Position numbers and translations under genes: made by a program
Assembly: GCA_021835185.1 (NCBI GenBank)
Contig: JAKBQO010000099.1
Coordinates: 1-5,736 of the forward strand
DNA from: Thermoplasmata archaeon
GTDB taxonomy: Archaea > Thermoplasmatota > Thermoplasmata > Thermoplasmatales > Thermoplasmataceae
Direction: 5' to 3'
Length of the DNA stretch: 5,736 bases
In this document: piece after piece, positions 2,442 to 5,736 of the stretch
Layout of the letters: each line of letters opens with the position of its first letter
Position numbering within the stretch: the first letter of the stretch is position 1
The notes under the pieces: generated by a model
The model's input: the letters and a program-made list of their open reading frames with translations, nothing else
What the model was told of the DNA's origin: nothing
The model's database searches: none

Positions 2442-3872
2442 ATGAAAAATCCTGAACAAGAGGAAATACCAGGCAAAACTAATAATACCAAAAAGATTTT
2501 GGCAATAGTTGTTGCTGTGGTGGTTATAGGAGTTGCAATTGGGGTAGCATACCACTATTTAGCTCCTCAACCCGTAAAAGAACAGACGCTTGCAGTGTAC
2601 CCGGGACCGGCGGGTGCAAACAATTCTGAGCATTTACTCGGTGGTTGCGTTATTGCTGAAGCATATAACCCGAACCTTAACTCTAGTAATATAGCTGCAA
2701 TGGATCAATTTGTCGCTTATATGCTTTCGCCAGAAGTGCAGTATACATGTGAACAGGCAACTGGATTTATACCGATAAGTTCGCATAACGTAACTGGAAC
2801 TGATGTGCCTTCAATATATAGCAAATCAAACGCCACTGTTCAAATAACATACTTCAATAGCCTTTCACCATCAGATTATAAAACAACAGAAAAAATCATA
2901 TCGAACTTTGAAACAAAATATCCAAATATCAAGATTAAAGCTACGAACGAATTAGCTACAGATATTGTAACCCAGGTAGAAACAGATAGATCATCATCTA
3001 GGACAACGCCGATTGTAATGACTATAGATAATCTCGATGTAGGTACACTGGCAAGCGGTTCATATCAAGGTGCATCTTATCTCGCAAATATGACAGGTTA
3101 TAAACAATTAATACCGGCAAATGTAATTCCTACAGTTACAAACTTAACAGAAACTGAATTGTCTATATATAATAGCGTTCCATTTATAACACAGTTAATT
3201 AACACGCCACTAGTATGGATAGATATGACAGCATTGAACTCAATAGGAATAACTCATGAACCACAGAATTACACCGCTCTTTTGAGTGATGCAAAGGCCT
3301 TGGATAAAAAATATGGCAGAGGAATGATAAATATGCAGGGGCATGGTGGAGCCAGTACTGCTACTGAATTATATCAGTGGATTGTCCAGTTTGGGGGAAA
3401 TCCGGTAACATTTAATTCCACAAACGATGTAAAAGCAATGTATGCTATGTATAACTTAAGCGCCTATTTCAGTCCAGAATACAAAACATCATACTGGGCA
3501 ACATACAAAGGTTTAGCATCTGACAAGTATGCAATGATGGATTATCAGTGGCCAGGTTCCGTAGACCTGAAAACAATTGGTATGAATACTTCTGCTCTAA
3601 CAGGAAATAACTCAGTACTTAACGTATCAATAAAAGCTATCTCTGAGGGAGTCTTTATAAGGGACCCGGTACCATGGATTTCAGAATGGCAGATATTAAT
3701 GGATAATGCGTGGACAACAATAATTACAGATGGAAATTCACAGAATTATTCAACAATTGCACATACGCTGAGTACTGAGAATCAGGATATGTTCAATCAT
3801 TTAGTAAGCAGCTACAACATAACCGTGGCAGATAACTATGAACAGGGTGTTTATCATCCTATAACTGCTTAA
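2442..3872 (+). CDS. Membrane-anchored sugar ABC transporter substrate-binding protein with rearranged segment order
   Basis: Binds a sugar or oligosaccharide outside the cell and hands it to an ABC permease (SBP_bac_1/MalE-like fold). Of 476 residues, 1-18 are a short charged cytoplasmic tail, 19-40 a hydrophobic anchor or signal (no lipobox cysteine), and the rest is extracellular with 14 N-x-S/T sequons, suiting an archaeal surface glycoprotein. The segment order is unusual. Residues about 49-125 (GPAG 55-58, LGG 66-68, SPEVQ 96-100, TGFIP 107-111) normally lie late in the chain. Residues 133-385 start like a mature N-terminus (VQITYFN, FETKYPNIKIK 156-166), continue through GITHEP (269-274), and reach the YQWPG ligand region (368-372). 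Residues 393-476 hold the C-terminal DPVPWISEW helix region (408-416). The order is anchor-B-A-C instead of anchor-A-B-C. The only cysteines are C69 and C103. The ATG is the first after an in-frame TGA at 2382-2384. The ligand is unknown; the neighbouring glycosidase suggests a glucan or oligosaccharide. Confidence 0.85.
   Translation: MKNPEQEEIPGKTNNTKKILAIVVAVVVIGVAIGVAYHYLAPQPVKEQTLAVYPGPAGANNSEHLLGGCVIAEAYNPNLNSSNIAAMDQFVAYMLSPEVQYTCEQATGFIPISSHNVTGTDVPSIYSKSNATVQITYFNSLSPSDYKTTEKIISNFETKYPNIKIKATNELATDIVTQVETDRSSSRTTPIVMTIDNLDVGTLASGSYQGASYLANMTGYKQLIPANVIPTVTNLTETELSIYNSVPFITQLINTPLVWIDMTALNSIGITHEPQNYTALLSDAKALDKKYGRGMINMQGHGGASTATELYQWIVQFGGNPVTFNSTNDVKAMYAMYNLSAYFSPEYKTSYWATYKGLASDKYAMMDYQWPGSVDLKTIGMNTSALTGNNSVLNVSIKAISEGVFIRDPVPWISEWQILMDNAWTTIITDGNSQNYSTIAHTLSTENQDMFNHLVSSYNITVADNYEQGVYHPITA
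2586..2816 (+). other. Relocated late-SBP segment (block B) within the binding-protein gene
   Basis: Codons about 49-125 encode the strand-strand-helix unit that in MalE-family proteins follows the GPW or QWPG ligand-binding region. In E. coli maltose-binding protein the matching stretch runs from about residue 242 (YGVTVLP) to about 311, most of it the second N-lobe piece (264-309). Here it precedes the block that begins the mature protein. Edges are approximate to within about ten codons, because they come from motif order and not from an alignment. Confidence 0.65.
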
Positions 3873-4000: not shown

Positions 4001-5200
4001 ATGGAAAAGGAATTGGAGGAAATAAGAAGTTCACTATTAAACGAATTAAATAAAATTCAATCAGTTGATGGTTATCCCTATGCCGGTTATCCGCGATTTA
4101 TGGAATTATTTGGCAGAGATTCTCTAATATCATCATTGCAATTATCATATTTGTACCCCGATTTTTTAAAGCACTCTCTGGAAGTTTTAAGCAAATATCA
4201 GGGGAACTCTTACAATATAGCCACCGGTGAGGAACCGGGTAAAATCCTCCATGAGCTCTCCAATTCAAATACATATATTTCAAATCCTGATAAAGAATCG
4301 TGGGTAGTTTTAAATAAACCCATATTTTTTTCTGTTGATAGTACACCTCTTTTTATTATTTCAGCAATATTGTTTATGAAAAAACATTCTGAAATGTATT
4401 TGTCTTCTATTATAAAATCAATTGAAAAGGCAGTAATATGGTTACTAAATAAATCTGAAAGTACAGGTTTCCTTACATATAACACCATGGAAATCCACAA
4501 TAAATTAGCATCAATGGGATGGATGGATGGGTCCTGGGATTTATATAGCAAATTATCAGGCGATATTGCGCTTATTGAAGTACAGGCCTATACTTATGAA
4601 GCTTTAAGGCTTTTTAATGAAATTTTTCCTTTTAGTAAATTGCATAAAATCATAGATGATAAACTCAGTTATTTAAGAAATAATATAAATAAATTCTTTT
4701 GGATTGATAGTATTAAATATTATTCTCCAGCAATTTCGATATCGAATGGTACCATAAACGCATTGAAAAATATAACATCTGGACCCGGGCATCTTCTAAT
4801 AACAGATATTATCGATTCACACAAAAAAAAGATGGTTGTCGAAACACTATTCGGAAAAAATATGATGACTTCATATGGAATAAGAACTGTAGCGACGAAT
4901 GATAACATATTTAATCCATTTAAATACCAGACCGGAAGTATATGGCCAAATGATAACTGGATAATAATGGAAGGGTTAAAAAGATCAGGTTTCAGCATTG
5001 AAGCTGAAAAATTACGAGTTAATCTATTAAATGCAGTAATCAGTTTAAAGGAGCCACTAGAATATTATTCAGTTGATATAAATAATAATATCATACCTTA
5101 TAAAGATCTATATATTAGTCCGTGCGAAATACAGGCATGGACAATTGGTATGTTTTTAAATGTAATAGACAATAAATTTCATGAGGGTTCGGAGTTATAA
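4001..5200 (+). CDS. Amylo-alpha-1,6-glucosidase-like (alpha/alpha)6 glycoside hydrolase, catalytic domain only
   Basis: Probably a cytoplasmic exo-acting glycosidase that trims glucose from imported or stored oligosaccharides; it has no signal peptide or membrane segment. Recognisable family motifs in order are FGRDS (37-41), SVDSTPLF (111-118), GWMDGSWD (173-180), IEVQAYTYEAL (192-202), GSIWPNDN (312-319) and PCEIQAW (374-380). The pattern is that of the glycogen-debranching/GH63-like six-hairpin clan. By analogy D176 is the likely general acid and E376 a candidate base, but these roles are inferred. At 399 residues it is far shorter than archaeal and bacterial debranching enzymes of this type (commonly about 600-700), which carry an N-terminal beta-rich domain; here the catalytic barrel starts almost at residue 1. 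Truncation is unlikely: an in-frame TAG sits at 3995-3997, and a TATA box is correctly spaced before the ATG. The gene looks AT-richer than its neighbours. Substrate (alpha-1,6 glucan, mannosylglycerate, another disaccharide) is open. Confidence 0.75.
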   Translation: MEKELEEIRSSLLNELNKIQSVDGYPYAGYPRFMELFGRDSLISSLQLSYLYPDFLKHSLEVLSKYQGNSYNIATGEEPGKILHELSNSNTYISNPDKESWVVLNKPIFFSVDSTPLFIISAILFMKKHSEMYLSSIIKSIEKAVIWLLNKSESTGFLTYNTMEIHNKLASMGWMDGSWDLYSKLSGDIALIEVQAYTYEALRLFNEIFPFSKLHKIIDDKLSYLRNNINKFFWIDSIKYYSPAISISNGTINALKNITSGPGHLLITDIIDSHKKKMVVETLFGKNMMTSYGIRTVATNDNIFNPFKYQTGSIWPNDNWIIMEGLKRSGFSIEAEKLRVNLLNAVISLKEPLEYYSVDINNNIIPYKDLYISPCEIQAWTIGMFLNVIDNKFHEGSEL

Positions 5201-5736
5201 TCTTCAGGCACAACAACATCTTCGAGCAAATTATCCTTGTATATATTGAATTTAATAAGATCAAAGTAAATATCATCACCAATAGCATACTTTTCCTTTG
5301 TTCTAATGACAATATTGGTATCATTGATATTGCAATGTATATAATAATTCCCCTCAGCATTTTCAATAAGGTTTACTTTGGCTTTTATCTTATCTCCCGG
5401 TTTCGCCCATATAGATCTGAATCCTACTGTTTTGCCAGGGTAACCGAGTATATCCCCATCAATAAAATTCATTGGATACGTTCCGATAAAATCACCAACC
5501 CATCTTGTAACAGGTTTTTCATATAATTCATCATATCTACCTATCTGTTCAATAACACCATTATGCAATACAGCTACTCTATCGGCCAGGTTAGATGCTT
5601 CAAGTTGATCATGTGTTACATAAATGAATGTATAATTTAACTCTCTCTGCAATCTTTTTAGCTCCTGCCTAGAAGTGTACCTTACCCTGGCATCTAAATT
5701 GCTCAGCGGTTCATCAAGAAGAAATAAAGCCGGGTC
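5179..5736 (-). CDS. Sugar ABC transporter ATP-binding protein, MalK/UgpC type (5' partial)
   Basis: Hydrolyses ATP on the cytoplasmic side to drive sugar import. The reading frame stays open to the window edge; 185 C-terminal residues are present, and Walker A and the LSGGQ signature lie off the edge. Window residues 4-9 are Walker B (LFLLDE), 11-15 the D-loop (LSNLD), and 40-44 the H-loop VTHDQ with H42. The stretch ADRVAVLHNGVIEQIG (51-66), then ELYEKP and GTYPMNF (85-91), is typical of the carbohydrate-uptake CUT1 ATPases. A C-terminal OB/TOBE regulatory domain follows, with VGFRSIWAKPG (104-114) in place of the usual GIRPE motif; at about 95 residues it is shorter than in E. coli MalK. 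The TTG at 5650-5652 is an internal leucine codon, not the start. The gene converges on the glycosidase gene and overlaps its last 22 bp. It is the likely partner of the binding protein, with permeases probably beyond the right edge. Confidence 0.93.
   Translation of the reverse strand, partial: DPALFLLDEPLSNLDARVRYTSRQELKRLQRELNYTFIYVTHDQLEASNLADRVAVLHNGVIEQIGRYDELYEKPVTRWVGDFIGTYPMNFIDGDILGYPGKTVGFRSIWAKPGDKIKAKVNLIENAEGNYYIHCNINDTNIVIRTKEKYAIGDDIYFDLIKFNIYKDNLLEDVVVPEDYNSEPS

Follow-up and report, generated by a model that had tools for sequence, protein, structure and literature searches.

An archaeal substrate-binding protein of the SBP_bac_1 family with a permuted block order

Background

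In binding proteins of cluster D-I, whose two-lobe fold has a five-stranded sheet in the N-lobe and a three-stranded one in the C-lobe, the chain runs N-I, C-I, N-II, C-II, with three hinge segments. Passages of PMC13084667 give the limits for TdCIBP (9XF5): N-I at residues 53-168, hinge I at 169-171, C-I at 172-315, hinge II at 316-319, N-II at 320-385, hinge III at 386-393 and C-II at 394-432. A natural departure from a standard chain order is described, in passages of PMC4990184, for a binding protein of another fold type: TpMglB-2 (Tp0684) of Treponema pallidum and its homologues, named 'Type Ic / Cluster Bc', are circularly permuted type I binding proteins in which three N-lobe strands have moved to the C-terminus and the chain makes a fourth crossing between the lobes; their authors raise tethering as a possible reason. 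Here we describe a gene for a substrate-binding protein (SBP) in a 5,736-nucleotide stretch of DNA from a Thermoplasmata archaeon (positions 1 to 5,736 of contig JAKBQO010000099.1, assembly GCA_021835185.1; hereafter, the window). The product is homologous to the SBP_bac_1 family and to cluster D-I chains, and in it an internal block, B, stands ahead of block A.

The open reading frame (ORF), at 2442-3872 on the forward strand, starts with ATG, is unbroken and codes for 476 residues in the order anchor-B-A-C; the normal order is A-B-C. Very probably, the product is a membrane-anchored SBP_bac_1 receptor of the CUT1 type whose internal block was moved to the front and refolded, likely through duplication and loss. 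In the one open library searched, TpMglB-2 was the only natural binding-protein permutation recognised, and no paper was recognised as describing the archaeal B-A-C case.

Evidence for the permuted order

The order B-A-C, which a preliminary description of the window had read from motifs, is agreed on by the motifs themselves, the alignment of relatives, block profiles, matches to chains of the PDB, and Pfam. The motifs VYPGPAG (residues 52-58), LLGG (65-68), SPEVQ (96-100) and TGFIP (107-111) all come before VQITYFN (133-139) and FETKYPNIKIK (156-166), and between QWPG (369-372) and RDPVPWISEW (407-416) there are no B-like motifs, just a short linker and one helix. In a 25-row alignment, 10 relatives of Sulfolobales/Nitrososphaerota type (36-42% identity) carry the B motifs between QWP and PVPWI and have none at the N-terminus. 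When block B alone was aligned in a single comparison, it fell on residues 298-344 of P0071, a Sulfolobus protein of normal order (18/51 identical, E 1e-7). The preliminary description had placed the moved block at residues 49-125; the block itself stands, and its limits are better drawn at about 48-112, since 113-131 is linker. (The limits of block C, about 392-476, are approximate.)

PDB chains were searched with one profile of 62 permuted proteins and one of 31 normal-order proteins. The permuted profile matches each of three chains in two stretches whose order is swapped: on 9xf5, 115-295 aligns with chain residues 35-211 and 59-126 with 310-376; on 9lff, 130-287 aligns with 40-198 and 64-120 with 317-375; on 1eu8, 144-286 aligns with 14-157 and 63-154 with 286-384. 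The B stretches thus all fall late in the chain; in 3uor and several 7c0/7c1 entries it is this late region that scores best. The normal-order profile matches in single stretches (40-405 with 32-409 of 9xf5; 56-404 with 13-382 of 1eu8). In the VIA-align structure list, where nearly all ranges begin at 125-134 and one, 4mfi, at 77, no chain was noticed pairing with the front block, although such a chain is possible nonetheless.

Pfam gives the same picture. Residues 33-104 of the Picrophilus protein P0017 match late SBP_bac_8 positions 202-263, normal-order P0071 matches SBP_bac_1 2-306 in one stretch, and the window protein matches SBP_bac_1 (PF01547) at 36.9 bits (gathering cut-off, 26) in two stretches that do not follow the order of the profile. 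The separate hidden Markov model comparison of the blocks that the preliminary description had proposed succeeded for residues 124-476 (SBP_bac_1, 30.6 bits); block B gave only a weak match to SBP_bac_8 227-262 (E 0.11).

Read by eye at the junctions of 86 rows, the breakpoints lie at about LGMNS/STLGVYPG and AYxNLP/NxSAV of the normal order. In the thinned set QWP is followed by GS in 39/39 B-A-C rows and by Y in 47/47 A-B-C rows, and the hinge III arginine is invariant in both orders (R407 in the window protein, R385 in P0071). All three blocks are under purifying selection; for B, the ratio of nonsynonymous to synonymous substitution rates (dN/dS) is 0 to 0.14 in nine pairs, two of which printed 0 owing to saturated dS. 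The linker between B and A is loose in some pairs, with dN/dS up to about 1.1. As had been anticipated, no second B block appears: none of the ORFs or proteins scored by block profiles (made with 62 permuted rows and 31 of normal order, and carrying no order themselves) has two. Rows that have no B are short, at contig ends or broken, barring two: a 693-residue ORF beside the gene of locus L049, with a weak A match only (30 bits), and L138, a 299-residue piece.

Distribution of the two orders

That the same order recurs in acidophilic archaea is borne out by protein, locus and whole-genome searches, sets that overlap and are not independent samples. A database search returned 96 homologous proteins, comprising 62 B-A-C, 31 A-B-C and three incomplete homologues of 296-313 residues (2 B-A, 1 A-C). 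The 73 genome loci comprise 28 B-A-C, 40 A-B-C, 4 cut by contig ends and 1 broken (L063). The B-A-C proteins belong to Thermoplasmata or to records with Parvarchaeota or Nanoarchaeota in their titles; two further records titled Nanoarchaeota (L038 and L042) have the A-B-C order. Contigs of between 1.15 and 1.68 Mb carry the B-A-C order in three records with species names, those of Picrophilus oshimae (P0017), Thermogymnomonas acidicola (P0027) and Oxyplasma meridianum (P0050), which we take to be cultured isolates. A profile-based protein search added five matches and no further complete B-A-C protein: two are A-B-C, a third is a fragment of an A-B-C protein, a fourth is an A fragment whose beginning is the tail of a B-A-C-type front, and the fifth is a distant protein with a weak A match.

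At the genome level, 39/300 genomes match in the class of the genome that holds locus L001, of which 15 B-A-C and 15 A-B-C were checked with block profiles and the remaining 9 were not retrieved. The phylum to which the Parvarchaeal genome belongs has 2/279 matching genomes, both B-A-C, and in the class of a Sulfolobales genome 25/197 match, 24 of them A-B-C and one a C fragment only. One genome, G002, holds both orders.

Two records call for comment. In L063 (Thermogymnomonas acidicola JCM 13583, about 7854-9295) the copy is split into three frames and the adjoining permease matches are split too, which suggests sequencing errors in that record; the other Thermogymnomonas acidicola record, P0027, has a full-length B-A-C protein. 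The SBP genes of L050 (titled Thermoplasmatales) and L051 (titled Dehalococcoidia) have identical block scores and spacing, and the bacterial title of L051 is probably a binning error.

Lobes, hinges and predicted fold

Escherichia coli maltose-binding protein, the lobe reference of the preliminary description, gave no usable direct alignment, and for this reason the lobes were mapped through TdCIBP. The mapped hinges (Table 1) mean that B holds hinge II, preceded by the final C-I strand and followed by the opening part of N-II, and that the last N-II helix stayed with block C. The preliminary description had expected one lobe crossing instead of three. This is not supported, because B opens with the equivalent of the final strand of the C-lobe and includes hinge II, and the helix ahead of hinge III (392-401) belongs to the N-lobe in a solved relative; the mapping implies four. 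In particular, the chain would cross at hinge II, at hinge I, in the new linker 374-391 and at hinge III.

The expectation that such a protein could fold fared better: a monomer model from AlphaFold 2 (AF2) is confident overall and for B. The fold of the B-A-C protein is at present a predicted one. From the front, the present chain would run anchor, C-I strand, hinge II, N-II part, linker, N-I and hinge I, and would continue with C-I, new linker, last N-II helix, hinge III and C-II. The pieces would refold into the usual two lobes, with a cleft that closes on the sugar as in other binding proteins; the tether would now enter next to the strand of hinge II and no longer at the first strand of the N-lobe, with four crossings, not three.

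Origin of the permutation

For the trees, the 162 complete sequences were reduced to 86 by thinning at 85% identity; no truncated or broken gene was included save P0058, which lacks the front half of B. In the main tree, made from A+C with B omitted (315 columns), all 39 B-A-C rows form one branch (91/82), which requires one change and recurs in 92% of 200 bootstrap trees; the Thermoplasmata and Parvarchaeal B-A-C subgroups are each supported at 100/100. B-A-C is taken to be the derived order, because the normal one is common to the solved relatives and the A-B-C branches. From an ancestral chain N-I, C-I, N-II, C-II, the simplest route would be that A-B was duplicated in tandem and the outermost copies were then lost (A-B-A-B-C giving B-A-C), and this is the likely one. 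Most simply, the permutation would have arisen once, before its spread in acidophilic Thermoplasmata and Parvarchaea.

Several observations weigh against parts of this account. No A-B-A-B-C intermediate was seen among the ORFs and proteins scored with block profiles. The B stretches on 9xf5, 9lff and 1eu8 are individually weak (independent E-values 0.077, 4.6e-4 and 1.1). The alignment behind the AF2 model has 62 rows, all permuted, and the new linker is its weaker part, with a predicted local distance difference test score of 66 for residues 371-380 and 78 for 381-390; homology, DSSP and confidence values are the basis of the proposed docking of B at its former position and of the four crossings. 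The sugar, discussed below, is guessed from neighbours and relatives. Finally, trees that separate the two B-A-C subgroups are not rejected by approximately unbiased (AU) tests (p-AU 0.20 and 0.17), Parvarchaeal B is on average nearer to A-B-C rows (about 0.50) than to Thermoplasmata B-A-C rows (0.34), and Parvarchaeal A+C is on average nearer to Sulfolobales-type A-B-C rows (0.51) than to Thermoplasmata B-A-C rows (0.44).

These tree tests and B identities are what would be expected if the permutation had arisen twice, in Parvarchaea and in Thermoplasmata, at about the same breakpoints. The transporter genes speak for this too, since 5/5 Parvarchaeal-type loci, and 0/23 Thermoplasmata B-A-C loci, have the same-strand SBP-MalF succession of A-B-C loci. 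However, the best tree has the single branch, the B-only tree is compatible with one B-A-C clade (p 0.45), and the QWP-GS mark is common to both groups, although the cut itself could produce it; two origins are, in our view, unlikely, at about one fifth of our belief. Somewhat less probable still is that B came from a paralogous binding-protein gene, with loss of the original B from the recipient. Paralogues do coexist, as G002 and G191 each contain, besides a B-A-C gene, another match to the family (in G002 an A-B-C gene, L080; in G191 not fetched). Yet the permuted B resembles B of the same family, with a mean identity of 0.35-0.50 to the nearer A-B-C groups and 0.23-0.32 to the farthest; a close-paralogue donor would be indistinguishable from an intragenic move, and the B-only tree has too few columns to place a donor. 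We give little credence to a domain-swapped dimer in which the front block enters a partner molecule: the variable linker 113-131 could permit it, and swapped elements occur in circularly permuted ribose-binding protein constructs according to passages of PMC10601554, but the monomer model from AF2 is confident for B and overall. An assembly chimera or gene-calling artefact that hides a normal-order gene, a worry of the preliminary description, has next to no chance, given the same order in 62/96 proteins from many sources, including the Picrophilus, Thermogymnomonas and Oxyplasma records with their megabase contigs, together with a single open frame and the selection on all three blocks.

Gene neighbourhood and likely function

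Homologues of the importer genes flank both orders: MalK in 25/28, MalG in 23/28 and MalF in 23/28 B-A-C loci, and MalK in 34/40, MalG in 37/40 and MalF in 40/40 A-B-C loci. In all 40 A-B-C loci the SBP gene is followed by MalF on the same strand; the transporter genes of the Thermoplasmata B-A-C loci, where seen, stand in other arrangements. The gene order of the five Parvarchaeal-type B-A-C loci (L025, L026, L028, L029 and L031) is SBP-MalF-MalG-MalK.

Of the importer genes, only part of the ATPase gene is visible in the window (Table 1). L001 has the full set, a MalK-type ATPase and both permeases; close to this set lie a GH15 gene and the small hydrolase gene that the window also has. The SBP gene stands before the hydrolase gene in the window; in L001 it lies past the permease genes, on the far side of the ATPase. 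The hydrolase and ATPase genes of the window converge, their 3' ends overlapping by 22 bases. The hydrolase-like protein (399 residues) matches MGH1-like and GDE_C in part and nothing in NCBIfam at E 0.001; homologues occur in 13/28 B-A-C and 13/40 A-B-C loci. Between the GH15 and small hydrolase genes of L001 (2072-3879) are serine-recombinase-like and TnpB-like ORFs that, judged by their sequence, have the look of an IS607-type insertion.

Table 1. Coordinates of features in the window; residue numbers are those of the 476-residue protein
Feature	Position	Strand	Basis
ADH/glucose-dehydrogenase-like gene	1-900
MFS transporter gene	1067-2227	-
Permuted substrate-binding protein gene, anchor-B-A-C, 476 aa	2442..3872	+	ORF, SBP_bac_1 match, block order
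N-terminal helix, residues 15-40, putative membrane anchor	2484..2561	+	AF2/DSSP helix; hydrophobic stretch in sequence
Moved block B, residues 48-112	2583..2777	+	Alignments, block profiles, PDB-chain profile matches, Pfam
Within B: last C-I strand equivalent and loop, residues 48-62	2583..2627	+	9xf5 alignment with PMC13084667 lobe limits; AF2 strand 48-51
Within B: hinge II equivalent, residues 63-66 (EHLL)	2628..2639	+	PDB-chain alignment and PMC13084667 lobe limits
Within B: N-II strand and two helices, residues 67-112	2640..2777	+	AF2/DSSP, PDB-chain alignment, lobe limits
New B-to-A linker, residues 113-131	2778..2834	+	Junction reading, dN/dS
Block A, residues 132-373: N-I 132-254, hinge I 255-257, C-I 258-373	2835..3560	+	Alignments and lobe limits
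QWPGS, residues 369-373; GS in B-A-C rows, Y[IV] in A-B-C rows	3546..3560	+	Thinned rows
New linker at vacated B site, residues 374-391; putative C-lobe-to-N-lobe crossing	3561..3614	+	Junctions
Last N-II helix equivalent, residues 392-403, stays with block C	3615..3650	+	AF2/DSSP, alignments, lobe limits
Hinge III equivalent, residues 404-411 (VFIRDPVP), R407 invariant in both orders	3651..3674	+	Alignments, lobe limits
C-II, residues 412-476	3675..3869	+	Block profiles, alignments, lobe limits
Putative glycoside hydrolase beside gene (MGH1-like / GDE_C)	4001..5200	+	Pfam
MalK/UgpC-type ABC ATPase gene, 3' part, runs off window	5179..5736	-	Family match; full-length counterpart in L001

CUT1 importer genes near most copies point to a putative membrane-anchored alpha-glucoside receptor of such an importer, for example for trehalose or a maltooligosaccharide. 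Several members of both orders are named trehalose transport system substrate-binding protein by the Joint Genome Institute (JGI). In mycobacterial LpqY a hinge-loop-3 arginine binds trehalose, according to passages of PMC7949145; R407 may be its counterpart. As to expression, a Cuniculiplasma proteome includes, according to passages of PMC7285479, a sugar-binding protein, CSP5_1649, which may or may not be the permuted protein.

Significance and comparison with known binding proteins

Whether this is the first known case of a non-circular permutation in nature among type II (cluster D) binding proteins, one internal block having passed another with all three hinges kept, a fourth crossing gained and the order fixed across acidophilic archaea, is in our judgement an even call. 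If it is, tethered sugar receptors would, with TpMglB-2, have been re-wired twice, in two fold types, each time with the anchor moved and a fourth crossing, a possible reason being relief of strain from the membrane tether. Because the two orders exist side by side (36-42% identity; once in one genome, G002), the breakpoints can be located and the branch recovered, the event and its effects on folding, hinge motion and tethering are directly testable. There is also a consequence for annotation: normal-order profiles under-score the permuted proteins (SBP_bac_1, 36.9 bits for the window protein versus 86.3 for P0071), and several of these are annotated as hypothetical.

The nearest relatives are the normal-order archaeal SBP_bac_1 proteins of Sulfolobales, Nitrososphaerota and other Thermoplasmata, such as P0071, which have the same three blocks at 36-42% identity, likewise carry the motifs QGHGGAST..ELYQW and R.PVPWI and have transporter genes nearby; they differ in their A-B-C order and in the Y after QWP. 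The solved cluster D-I proteins, namely TdCIBP (9XF5/9XFU), the Thermococcus litoralis TMBP 1eu8 and the Thermotoga maritima MalE3 6dtr, have homologous blocks, hinges that are equal by alignment and a two-lobe fold that is predicted to be the same in the window protein, but their chain order with its three hinge segments is not that of the window protein. The preliminary description was right that this is neither a fusion of two proteins nor a simple circular permutation, C being last in every complete B-A-C row examined. Its 'new topological class' stands as a variant within SBP_bac_1/cluster D-I and goes no further, since TpMglB-2, of the other fold type, was published earlier. Fukami-Kobayashi is said to have proposed in 1999 a domain dislocation for the old split between the type I and type II folds; the likeness is that the core order of binding proteins changed in evolution, and its subject is that old split. 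TpMglB-2, as passages of PMC4990184 present it, is the closer parallel, a tethered sugar-binding protein whose topology was permuted in nature and became fixed in a family, with a fourth crossing such as the archaeal protein would also have. It differs in that it has a type I/cluster B fold, permuted circularly; the archaeal protein, which has no MglB-type fold relation and so falls outside Type Ic / Cluster Bc, is homologous to SBP_bac_1 and cluster D-I chains, and its permutation is non-circular.
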